Source of the DNA: Chitinophaga pinensis
GTDB lineage: Bacteria > Bacteroidota > Bacteroidia > Chitinophagales > Chitinophagaceae
NCBI GenBank assembly: GCA_945872085.1
Contig: CAMBYG010000011.1
Span: 1 to 35,654 of the forward strand
DNA: 35,654 bases
Direction of reading: 5' to 3'
Of this stretch, positions 31,856 through 35,645 are shown one piece after another; positions within the stretch are counted from its first letter, which is position 1, and each line of letters begins with the position of its first letter. Both the position numbers and the translations under genes were made by a program. A model generated the notes under the pieces. That model searched no databases and had not been told where the DNA came from. It saw only the letters and a list, made by a program, of their open reading frames with translations.

Positions 31856-32513
31856 AATTTTTAGATTCTTCAATGATTTGTAGGCTAGCTGAGCAGCCAA
31901 TTCTATTGGCACCTGCTGCAATCAATTCTTTTGCAAAGGCATAGTTGCGTATGCCACCAGATGCTTTTATTTGAATGGATGCAGGTAGGCAACTTTTTAT
32001 GGTTATGATGTCTTCGGTGCTAGCACCTTTAGAAGCATATCCGGTTGAGGTTTTTATAAAATCAACATTCAGGGCTGCATATATTTTACAGCATGCAATA
32101 ATCTCTTCTTTGGTTAATTCGCCGCTTTCGATAATAATTTTAACAATGCATTGGTGTTGGTGTGCCAACTCAATGATGGCTTGTGCCTCAGCTCTAAGAA
32201 AGTCCCATTGTTTATTTTTAACGGCACAAATATTATGCACCACATCTAGTTCTTTGGCTCCATGCGCAATGGCTTCTTGTACTTCAATTAATTTTGAGGC
32301 GGTGCTATTATATCCGAACGGGAATCCAATAACAGTAGCAATGACAACATTAGAATTCGCTAAACTTTCTTTTGCTAGTTTTATATAATTGCCACTAACG
32401 CATACTGCTTTTATATTATAGCGCATCGCTTCCGTGCATAGCAGAATAATATCTTCCGACTTCGCTGTTGGTTTCAACAGGGTATGATCTATGTAGGAAG
32501 CGATGGGTAGCAT
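31854..32513 (-). CDS. deoC: Deoxyribose-phosphate aldolase
   Basis: A 219-residue TIM-barrel class I aldolase that splits 2-deoxyribose-5-phosphate into glyceraldehyde-3-phosphate and acetaldehyde. The Schiff-base lysine is K154 (FIKTSTGY), K183 is in IKASGGIR, and D90 in ELDVV completes the known triad. The segment after D90 reads VVHNICAVK where many relatives have a VIN(I/V)G-type run. The ATG overlaps the icd stop by one base (TAATG), so the genes are translationally coupled. Nucleoside catabolic genes are not nearby. Confidence 0.95.
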   Translation of the reverse strand: MLPIASYIDHTLLKPTAKSEDIILLCTEAMRYNIKAVCVSGNYIKLAKESLANSNVVIATVIGFPFGYNSTASKLIEVQEAIAHGAKELDVVHNICAVKNKQWDFLRAEAQAIIELAHQHQCIVKIIIESGELTKEEIIACCKIYAALNVDFIKTSTGYASKGASTEDIITIKSCLPASIQIKASGGIRNYAFAKELIAAGANRIGCSASLQIIEESKN

Positions 32514-33778
32514 TATAAGTTTTTTATTAGTTCTTCTGCAAATTCACTTGTTTTTAAAAGTGTAGCGTCATGCATAAGATTATAAAAATCTATAGTTACA
32601 CGCTTTCTTTTAATAGTAGTTTTTAAGCTTTCTACGATGGCGTCTGCTGCTTCGTTCCAGCCCATGTATTCCAACATCATTACGCCACTTAATAATAAAG
32701 AGGAGGGGTTCATAGTATTAGTGTTGGCAAATCGAGGCGCCGTTCCATGTGTGGCTTCAAATACCGCATGGCCTGTTGTGTAATTGATATTGCCACCCGG
32801 TGCAATACCAATGCCGCCAACTGCAGCTGCAAGTGCATCGGAAATATAGTCGCCATTCAAATTCAATGTAGCGATTACACTAAAATCTTTTGGTGCTAAT
32901 AAAATTTGTTGTAAGAAATTATCGGCGATACAATCATTGATTATGATTTTACCTTCTACGCTTGCTTTTTTAAGGGCAATATTTGCAGCTTCTTCATTCT
33001 GTTCTGCTTTTATTGCTTCCCATTCCATCCAAGTAAATACTTGATCTCCAAATGCTTCTTTTGCTATTTCATAACCCCAATTTTTAAATCCACCTTCTGT
33101 GAATTTCATAATATTGCCTTTATGTACCAGGGTTACACTTGGTTTCTTTTGTTCTATAGCATATTGAATTGCTGCTTTAATGAGTCGTTGAGAACCTTCT
33201 TTTGAAACCGGTTTAATGCCTAGTGCCGTACTTTCTGGGAATCGAATTTGCTTGTCAACGCCTAATTCTGTTTTTAAGAAGTGCATTAGTTTTTGCACTT
33301 CTTCACTGCCCATTTTAAATTCAATACCGGCATAGATATCCTCGGTGTTTTCTCTAAAGATCGTCATGTTCACATCTTCAGGATGATGCACTGGAGATGG
33401 AACTCCTTTAAACCAATTCACTGGTCGTAAGCATACATATAAATCTAATTCTTGTCTCAACGCTACATTTAAAGAGCGAATGCCACCACCAACTGGCGTA
33501 GTTAATGGGCCTTTAATAGATACTAAATATTCTTTTGCTATATCAAGCGTAGCTGCAGGAAGCCACTCTCCGGTTTGATTAAAAGCTTTTTCGCCTGCCA
33601 ACATTTCTTTCCACTCTATTTTTCGCTCGCCTTTATATAATTTTTCAACAGCCGCGTCTAATACTTTTCTGCTTGCACTCCAAACATCGGGACCAATACC
33701 ATCACCTTCAATAAACGGAATTATGGGCTGATTGGGAACTTGTAACTTGCCATTAGCGCCCATGGTAATTTTATTCAT
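32513..33778 (-). CDS. icd: Isocitrate dehydrogenase, E. coli Icd type, coenzyme preference uncertain
   Basis: A 421-residue homodimeric-type isocitrate dehydrogenase. The isocitrate-binding segment [23 protein letters not shown] has the phosphorylatable-type Ser with the Asn and both Arg. [11 protein letters not shown] and the [16 protein letters not shown] region are conserved. By alignment with E. coli Icd (offset five), the NADP determinants differ: Lys344 is R349, Tyr345 is F350, Val351 is M356, Tyr391 is I396 and Arg395 is N400. The NADP label therefore rests on family only. It has a TAnnTTTG element at 33803-33810 and is followed by deoC with a TAATG overlap. Confidence 0.95.
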
Positions 33779-33863: not shown

Positions 33864-34913
33864 TTATTTTTTTGCAATGGTAAAACCAAATGTAGTGCCA
33901 ATGCCAATTTTACTTCTAACGGTCACATTTTGTCCATGTGCTTCAATAATGTGTTTAACGATGGCCAAGCCCAATCCGGTGCCTCCAATAGATCGGTTTC
34001 TACTCTTATCTGCTCTGTAAAAGCGTTCAAAAATTCTTGGCAGATGCTCTTCGGGAATTCCAGGGCCGTTGTCGGTAACTTCAACAAGGATAGTTTTTTT
34101 ATCTAATGCATACCACCCTAGGGTAACGAAGCCATATTCTGAACCATATTTAATGGCGTTTTCAATTAGGTTAATGAGTACTTGTTTGTATTTATTTTTA
34201 TCGCCATCAACTAATACGTCTGTTTTAGTATCGGGTTTTATTTCTAGGCTAATATTCTTTTCTTTTGCTTTTAATCGAATTTCTTCAAAAACATCCTGCA
34301 CTATTTCTTGCAATTGAAAATGTTCTATAACCAATGGTATGCTGCCGGATTCTAATTTTGAAATTTCATGTAAGTCATTTACAAGATGTACCAATCGTTC
34401 AACACTATTGGCTGCATTCTGCAAGAATTTACGGTTTACTTGAGGATCTTCTAGCGCACCATTTAATAGGGTGTCTATATAGCCTTGGATATTGAAAATA
34501 GGGGTTCTAACTTCATGCGTTAGATTCATTAAAAATTCTTTTCTGAATTGTTCGTTTTTACGAAGTAATTCTATTTCGTCTTTTTTTTCTACAGCCCAAA
34601 GTTCAACGTCTGATTTAACTTCTTCGATTGTTTTTTGTGGTAGTAAATGTTCGTTGAAATATTGTTCTCTTTTGCTCGATTTGGTTTGGTTGATGAGCTT
34701 ATAGATTAGCTTGATTTTTTTAGCTATGTATTTTTCAATAATGGCATTAACAACAAAGTAACCTATAAAGCCAGAAATGGCTAATATTATGATTGCATTA
34801 AAGAAAGGAATTTCAAAAAATAGACAGCATATCGCTATTGCGATACTTGATATGAGAACTGAAAAAAAACTTAATTGACTGGTTGAATAGTCTTTTTTAT
34901 CAAAAAAATCCAT
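33864..34913 (-). CDS. Sensor histidine kinase (PhoR-like)
   Basis: A 349-residue kinase. Two transmembrane helices (about residues 12-33 and 37-59) are separated by only a few residues, so there is almost no periplasmic sensor. A linker follows, then HisKA with the phosphorylated H133 in LTHEVRTP. The HATPase domain has N (NLIENAIKYG), DNGPGIP, RIFERFYRADKSRN and GGTGLGLAIV. It should phosphorylate the adjacent response regulator, 17 bases upstream in the transcript. The signal is unknown. The phosphate assignment is by resemblance only. Confidence 0.94.
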   Translation of the reverse strand: MDFFDKKDYSTSQLSFFSVLISSIAIAICCLFFEIPFFNAIIILAISGFIGYFVVNAIIEKYIAKKIKLIYKLINQTKSSKREQYFNEHLLPQKTIEEVKSDVELWAVEKKDEIELLRKNEQFRKEFLMNLTHEVRTPIFNIQGYIDTLLNGALEDPQVNRKFLQNAANSVERLVHLVNDLHEISKLESGSIPLVIEHFQLQEIVQDVFEEIRLKAKEKNISLEIKPDTKTDVLVDGDKNKYKQVLINLIENAIKYGSEYGFVTLGWYALDKKTILVEVTDNGPGIPEEHLPRIFERFYRADKSRNRSIGGTGLGLAIVKHIIEAHGQNVTVRSKIGIGTTFGFTIAKK

Positions 34914-34930
34914 TCTTAAAGGTACTAGAT

Positions 34931-35617
34931 TTATTCTGGAACTTGAAATTTATACCCAACGCCTTTTACAGTACTTATTAAATCGATACCTACTTTTTGT
35001 CGAATTTTTCTAACGTGAACATCTATGGTGCGGTCACCAACAATCACGTCAGTGCCCCAAACTTTTTGTAATATTTCATTGCGTAAAAACACTCTACTAG
35101 GTTTTGAAGCGAGAAGACTCAATAATTCAAACTCTTTTTTAGCTAAAATTATTTGTTCGCCTTTGTATTTTACGGTAAACTGACTTCTATTGATTTCTAA
35201 ATCACCAAATTCTTGCTTCTCATCTACCTTTTCTTTGCTATTTCTTCTCAACGCACTGTTTATTCTAGTGAGCAGCAATTCCATTTTAATAGGCTTAGCA
35301 ATATAGTCATCTGCACCTAAGTTAAGGCCATCAATTTCTGATTTTTCATCAGAAAGTGCGGTTAAAAATATAATGATGGTATTGGCAAATTGAGGCTTCA
35401 GTTTTAATTCTTTTAATGTTTGTATGCCATCTTTGTTAGGCATCATTACATCTAATAGAATTAAATTGGGTTTGAAGTAAAGCGCTTTTGCAATGGCTTC
35501 ATTCCCATCAGATGCGGTTTCTACTTCAAATCCTTTACTACGAAGGGTGTAGCTGATAAATTCCACGATATCCTGTTCGTCATCAACTACTAATATTCTA
35601 TCGATTGAATTGCTCAT
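34931..35617 (-). CDS. OmpR/PhoB family response regulator
   Basis: A 228-residue protein. The receiver domain (residues 5-120) has acidic D12-D13, phospho-acceptor D56 (LILLDVMMP), Thr in IIFLTALS and Lys in DDYIAKPIK. The C-terminal winged helix (about 130-228) has SRVFLRNEILQKVWG and DRTIDVHVRKIRQKVG. A GTG at 35638 would extend it by seven residues but overlaps the TAATTTTG promoter element, so ATG 35617 is chosen. It forms a two-gene unit with the histidine kinase. Confidence 0.95.
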   Translation of the reverse strand: MSNSIDRILVVDDEQDIVEFISYTLRSKGFEVETASDGNEAIAKALYFKPNLILLDVMMPNKDGIQTLKELKLKPQFANTIIIFLTALSDEKSEIDGLNLGADDYIAKPIKMELLLTRINSALRRNSKEKVDEKQEFGDLEINRSQFTVKYKGEQIILAKKEFELLSLLASKPSRVFLRNEILQKVWGTDVIVGDRTIDVHVRKIRQKVGIDLISTVKGVGYKFQVPE

Positions 35618-35637
35618 TGTTGGTTTGTTATTATGCA

Positions 35638-35645
35638 CAAAATTA
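35638..35645 (-). promoter_or_regulatory. Candidate -7 promoter element for the two-component operon
   Basis: The minus strand reads TAATTTTG, an exact TAnnTTTG match, 20 bases before ATG 35617. The -33 position lies past the window edge. Confidence 0.5.

Follow-up and report, generated by a model that had tools for sequence, protein, structure and literature searches.

The choice between NADP and NAD by isocitrate dehydrogenase (IDH; Icd for the type considered here) is a familiar example of how enzymes adapt. According to PMC3590139 (sources with PMC numbers are cited here from excerpts), residues 344 and 345 in Escherichia coli numbering are 'reliable landmarks' of that choice, with Lys-Tyr denoting NADP and Asp-Ile denoting NAD. 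The icd gene in the window, by which we mean the whole 35,654-nucleotide stretch of Chitinophaga pinensis DNA that was analysed, encodes Arg-Phe at these positions, which raises the questions of which coenzyme its product uses and whether the altered pocket belongs to this protein alone.

The window encodes an intact type I isocitrate dehydrogenase

The interval singled out by the original prediction is a single, intact open reading frame on the minus strand:

33778..32513, minus strand: icd, type I isocitrate dehydrogenase, 421 aa (homodimer expected from the family)

The protein passes, over its whole length, the curated cut-offs of two NCBIfam equivalog models that place it among type I homodimeric Icd enzymes, PRK07006 (682.9 bits; cut-off 490) and TIGR00183 (640.3; cut-off 567.3), both named NADP-dependent IDH; Pfam Iso_dh also matches. 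Its description in the original prediction as very like E. coli Icd holds to the extent of 58–62% identity, but the protein is closer to Bacillus subtilis Icd (69%), with which it shares an insert absent from the E. coli enzyme. Among solved chains the order of closeness is B. subtilis 1hqs, Acidithiobacillus thiooxidans 2d4v and then E. coli Icd. A ligand-free AlphaFold2 monomer model (pLDDT 91.1, pTM 0.90) has 1hqs as its best PDB match (TM 0.96; 0.95 for 2d4v) and is weaker around R349-F350 (mean pLDDT 74 for residues 341–350). The ten positions which we take to be the isocitrate and metal residues of Icd (S113, N115, R119, R129, R153, Y160, K230, D283, D307 and D311) carry the identical letter in all 198 aligned rows, one truncated row being gapped at 113–119. 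The catalytic residues of the window Icd are intact, and isocitrate oxidation is most likely normal. The genome from which the window derives (1.9 Mb, 95 contigs, 95% complete) holds one match to this protein.

The neighbourhood of the gene has two further features. The icd stop and deoC start codons overlap (TAATG, 32511–32515), which suggests translational coupling; a deoC homologue lies in the flanks, some of them short, of 27 of the best 80 of 582 named icd loci. A PhoR/PhoB-like histidine kinase and response regulator, encoded immediately upstream of icd in the same orientation, occupy 33864–35638, and such a pair adjoins icd in nine of the same best 80.

Six coenzyme-pocket residues are changed

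Pocket positions were read by alignment to the Icd sequences of B. subtilis, A. thiooxidans and E. coli, the last reportedly the enzyme of the Dean and Zhu work and of the Hurley and Stoddard structures. The alignment bears out exactly the five residues named in the original prediction, R349, F350, M356, I396 and N400, at E. coli K344, Y345, V351, Y391 and R395, and adds a sixth that it had overlooked: A295, where NADP-type enzymes have R292' of the second subunit. Loci with Phe at E. coli column 345 (F350 of the window Icd) are hereafter denoted RFM-type (n = 97 in the counts). The pocket codons are:

32894..32896, minus strand: A295, equivalent to E. coli R292' (NADP contact reaching across from the other subunit); A 88, S 7, N 2 of 97 RFM-type loci
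32729..32734, minus strand: R349-F350, equivalent to E. coli K344-Y345 by alignment
32711..32722, minus strand: T353-N354-T355-M356 of the coenzyme loop, equivalent to E. coli Q348, D349, K350 and V351
32591..32593, minus strand: I396, equivalent to E. coli Y391; I 84, V 13 of 97 RFM-type loci
32579..32584, minus strand: Y399-N400, equivalent to E. coli E394-R395 by alignment

Y345, Y391 and R395 hydrogen-bond the 2'-phosphate of NADP in the closed form of E. coli Icd (PMC6313988, Table 2, as excerpted); the window Icd has F350, I396 and N400 in their place. PMC8623467 (excerpt) counts R292 of the second E. coli subunit among the NADP contacts; the window Icd has A295 there. In the Aeropyrum pernix enzyme, Arg296' of the second subunit touches the 2'-phosphate (PMC6313988, excerpt), and its spacing to the neighbouring Gln leads us to infer that it corresponds to R292. 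Position 344 stays basic, with R349 (Lys to Arg). NAD-specific type I IDHs have Asp at 344 (PMC3590139 and PMC10380307, excerpts), and where their Asp344-Ile345-Ala351 would stand, the window Icd has R-F-M. The original prediction was thus right that the pocket matches neither residue set. What R349-F350 does present is the combination found in dual-coenzyme enzymes, a basic residue at 344 followed by a hydrophobic one at 345.

The altered pocket is a clade trait

Pocket counts took loci with a summed BLAST score above 300, 194 in all; L022, L160 and L161 (fragments of one broken Icd of G034, 80–86% identical) and L220 were left out of every count, and L152 and L178 are one gene. All 97 RFM-type loci, the window's own included, lack R292, V351, Y391 and R395 (Y345 being absent by definition). 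R292 is kept in 94/94 canonical loci, or 96/96 canonical rows when two references are included, versus 0/97 RFM-type loci. Arg or Lys occupies position 344 in 96 of the 97; position 399 is Y in 88, H in 6 and F in 3, and position 400 is N in 76, K in 18 and Q in 3. These loci comprise 94 distinct sequences for the RFM-type and 93 for the 94 canonical loci, and are related rather than independent. A second genome of the genus carries the identical pocket (L002, 99% identity) and, since the changes also recur in all 97 loci, chance or sequencing error is excluded.

An R/K-F-M-I/V-N/K/Q pocket is present in all of the best 80 of 582 confirmed named-relative loci, a set biased toward near kin, in which Chitinophaga, Taibaiella, Edaphocola, Flavipsychrobacter, Ferruginibacter and MAGs with titles such as Chitinophagaceae or Bacteroidetes are represented at 70–99% identity. 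Within the window's family, all 15 genomes with a full-length Icd (the window's included) have R/K/Q-F-M-I/V-N/K/Q. Outside the family but within the order, 35/35 Icd loci read are canonical in the pocket, one with Phe at 391. At phylum level the pocket was read in 69 of 134 genomes with an Icd match, a sample partly hand-picked for divergence; among 64 loci read, 59 have R292-[KR]-Y-[VI]-Y-[RN], three have an N-I-V pocket with M/I at 292, and two, in G148 and G492 from a different family of the class, are RFM-type. The RFM pocket spans at least 15 genus codes, 14 within the family and one outside. The altered pocket is a trait not of the window protein alone but of a clade that takes in Chitinophagaceae and a second family of the class.

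The three N-I-V loci (L183, L192 and L195, in G484, G480 and G375 of the same class) keep R395 behind an Asn-Ile-Val pocket and have Pro, His or Asn at 391 and Met or Ile at 292. RFM-type Icds at 79–81% identity also occur in MAGs titled Azovibrio restrictus (L048) and Phycisphaerales (L065); these contigs are perhaps mis-binned or mis-named.

The differences cluster in the coenzyme pocket

All 398 well-filled columns were ranked by how sharply they separate RFM rows (16, non-redundant) from canonical rows (64). The eight highest, in E. coli numbering, were 394, 391, 351, 345, 292, 348, 350 and 395. All eight fall within a pocket set of 37 positions taken from PMC8623467 as excerpted (loop 336–352, helix 390–397 and listed contacts), with a hypergeometric probability of 2.7e-9, or 2.9e-8 without the group-defining column 345. 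The set was chosen after the ranking was known and the sequences are related, so these figures describe clustering along the protein and not evolutionary events. The new states are close to fixed in the RFM-type loci (M356 97/97, T353 95/97, T/S355 95/97, Y399 88/97; F350 97/97, by definition), and the site therefore looks re-specialised rather than decayed.

Phylogeny

In a tree computed without twelve pocket columns, the RFM rows, the three N-I rows and the NAD-dependent A. thiooxidans enzyme (AtIDH, 2d4v) separate from 25 canonical rows with support 95/86, and the RFM rows alone are grouped with 74/78; canonical rows were thinned, L199, L202, L021, L210 and L201 were left out, and the bootstrap was not fully settled. 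A quick tree of 84 rows gave supports of 96 and 82. When AtIDH and three long or outlying rows (L009, L203 and L218) were additionally removed, the RFM rows alone received 96/90 and RFM with N-I 94/44. These trees support a single origin for the RFM pocket and suggest, though not firmly, a kinship of the RFM Icd with NAD-type enzymes. Rooting with TIGR02924-type IDHs (without L203, L218 and L009) yields a tree in which the RFM rows are not one group; its root falls on a single terminal row, L167, with 2.66 of branch length to each side, and this rooting was set aside as an artefact of distance.

Genome context

The context survey covered 147 genomes, the window's own and relatives. The family's other IDH has a D-I-A-G pocket, NAD-like by motif; of 59 genomes assigned to this D-I-type, the pocket was read in 12 and the other 47 were placed by a sub-cut-off TIGR02924 score band. 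RFM-Icd and D-I-type IDH occur together in none of 88 family genomes, where about ten would be expected, as if the two fill the same slot.

Isocitrate lyase is found in 0/15 RFM, 2/59 D-I-type and 14/34 canonical genomes (RFM versus canonical, Fisher p = 0.0023); discarding four weak, partial matches among the canonical genomes lowers their count to 10/34 (p = 0.021). Glucose-6-phosphate dehydrogenase (zwf) is found in 7/15, 43/59 and 1/34, respectively (p = 0.0005). Counting G034 as RFM and adding the fragmented canonical G045 alters these contrasts little, with p = 0.0021 for isocitrate lyase and p = 0.00065 for zwf. Both contrasts are confounded by ancestry, because the RFM genomes are one family and the canonical genomes are its sister families. 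The transhydrogenase subunit PntB fails to separate RFM from canonical genomes (14/15 versus 23/34, p = 0.075; D-I-type 45/59). The absence of isocitrate lyase from the RFM genomes agrees with the statement, in an excerpt of PMC5909895, that organisms without this enzyme carry an NAD-specific ICDH. The RFM context resembles that of D-I-type genomes more than that of canonical ones, and it fits a lower NADPH output from Icd, with ancestry as a confounder.

In the window genome and its sister G002 (95–96% complete), searches found no isocitrate lyase, zwf, monomeric IDH or TIGR02924-type IDH; PntB and the alpha-ketoglutarate dehydrogenase E1 component are present. Compensation through zwf is thus inapplicable to the window genome, from which the gene is missing, and the window Icd is the only IDH detected in the genus when Icd, TIGR02924-type and monomeric enzymes are considered.

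Two other accounts of the context were set aside. A second IDH as NADP supplier is non-discriminating, with over-cut-off TIGR02924 matches in 4/15 RFM, 9/59 D-I-type and 14/34 canonical genomes; in the four RFM genomes concerned, the pocket of this second enzyme is R/K-R-A-Y three times and L-I-A-N once. An incomplete TCA cycle behind NAD use is unsupported, the E1 component being present in 15/15 RFM genomes.

TIGR02924-type IDHs of the order (L127–L146) have widely varying pockets (R-R-A-Y-K, K-M-A-N-K, L-I-A-N-K and D-I-A-A-K, among others) and would, from their motifs, form a second coenzyme-variable IDH family. Four genomes of the family (G007, G012, G021 and G077; 99–100% complete) have no detected Icd, TIGR02924-type or monomeric IDH.

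Comparison with characterised enzymes

Two characterised type I homodimers with a basic residue at 344 come nearest, both compared at positions 344, 345 and 351. UmIDH of Umbonibacter marinipuiceus (420 aa) has, like the window Icd, Arg at 344 followed by a hydrophobic residue (R345-L346-V352), but Leu and Val for Phe and Met; according to the excerpt of PMC10380307, its kcat/Km is 2.3-fold higher for NADP, its Km exceeds 1 mM for both coenzymes, and two or three substitutions leave it active with only one coenzyme. MfIDH of Methylobacillus flagellatus has also lost Y345 while keeping a basic 344, but carries K-I-A in place of R-F-M; it is dual-coenzyme, with a 5-fold preference for NAD (PMC5397045, excerpt). 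The window Icd is likely, by analogy, to belong to the same dual class.

The B. subtilis NADP-IDH (BsIDH, 1hqs), the closest solved structure, shares the insert and catalytic residues with the window Icd but has the full R292'-K-Y-V-Y-R NADP pocket. AtIDH (approximately 62% identity) resembles the window Icd in being without K344, Y345, Y391 and R395, and groups with the RFM rows once the pocket columns are removed, but differs in its D-I-A motif and in retaining R292. Because an NAD enzyme keeps this arginine, its loss is by itself no mark of NAD use.

Coenzyme use and mechanism

On balance the evidence leans towards an active TCA-cycle Icd whose adenosine/2'-phosphate pocket has been re-specialised across the clade, with NADP having lost its advantage and NAD+ being preferred or both coenzymes used. 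This is close to the relaxed or NAD-leaning specificity put forward in the original prediction, which is the best-supported reading given the loss of Y345, Y391, R395 and R292', the dual-coenzyme precedents and the genome context, but which applies clade-wide and not to one protein. The retained Arg or Lys at 344 would still allow NADP use; as Y391, R395 and R292' are lost as well, the window Icd should lean to NAD. In mechanistic terms, the 2'-phosphate of NADP would lose two tyrosine hydroxyls and two arginines, with R349 at most remaining, and would gain little binding energy without them; NAD+ would fit against F350, M356 and I396, and R349 may leave some NADP activity. The NADH formed would feed respiration, and NADPH would come from other sources, PntB being encoded in the window genome.

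The main rival reading, in our view unlikely, is an NADP-specific enzyme with a rebuilt 2'-phosphate site, in which R349 together with T353, T355, Y399 or N400 replaces the classical ligands. The newly conserved polar residues T353, T/S355 and Y399 could in principle rebuild such a site, the basic residue at 344 is kept almost throughout, and strong pocket conservation could equally mean a site of this kind; in yeast type II IDH, Arg316-His317 bind the phosphate at the corresponding places (PMC6313988, excerpt). The NCBIfam models call the window protein NADP-dependent, and UmIDH, which has the nearest pocket, slightly prefers NADP. Set against this are the loss of R292' and R395 in every member, a genome context like that of D-I-type genomes and not of canonical ones, and the variation of 399 to F and H and of 400 to K and Q, which is loose for a phosphate ligand.

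An enzyme that binds both coenzymes weakly and discriminates poorly between them, as an evolutionary intermediate without functional preference, has a direct precedent in UmIDH, whose R-L-V pocket is of just this kind, but we consider it improbable here: conservation of the pocket over at least 15 genus codes, in what is the only IDH detected in the genus, speaks for efficient catalysis with one of the coenzymes at least. Neutral drift under relaxed constraint, with coenzyme use unchanged and the substitutions meaning little, finds some encouragement in the individually conservative nature of K to R, Y to F and V to M; given that all eight top separating columns lie in the pocket and that the new states are near-invariant, we regard it as very remote. 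Returning to the NAD-preferring or dual-coenzyme reading, the NADP-specific label of the window Icd is probably wrong, and the enzyme may work with NAD or with both coenzymes.

A more ambitious proposal, which we advance tentatively and with less than even confidence, is that R/K-F-M-I/V-N/K with A292 constitutes a third, stably inherited coenzyme solution of bacterial Icd, distinct from D-I-A (NAD) and K-Y-V-Y-R (NADP): an efficient NAD-preferring enzyme without Asp344, fixed in a family, with the Arg-type intermediate, held to be unstable, as a possible evolutionary endpoint.

Implications

Dual and NAD-dependent Icds were already known; what is new, relative to the open-access literature matches listed, is a conserved R-F-M-I-N pocket spanning a family, no description of which appears among those matches, nor, judged by title and start of abstract, does any characterised Chitinophagaceae Icd. 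A clade with a third conserved state is natural material for testing the two-state code at 344/345. It also bears on the view, published in PMC10380307 as excerpted, that UmIDH is a poorly stabilised survivor of low activity and that good stabilisation is out of reach for an Arg-type intermediate; the R-F-M pocket, by contrast, has become fixed throughout a clade. For Chitinophagaceae, the analysis suggests that the automatic NADP label is not to be trusted for the RFM clade; if relatives are labelled NADP-dependent as well, a main source of NADPH would be misplaced in metabolic models of the family.
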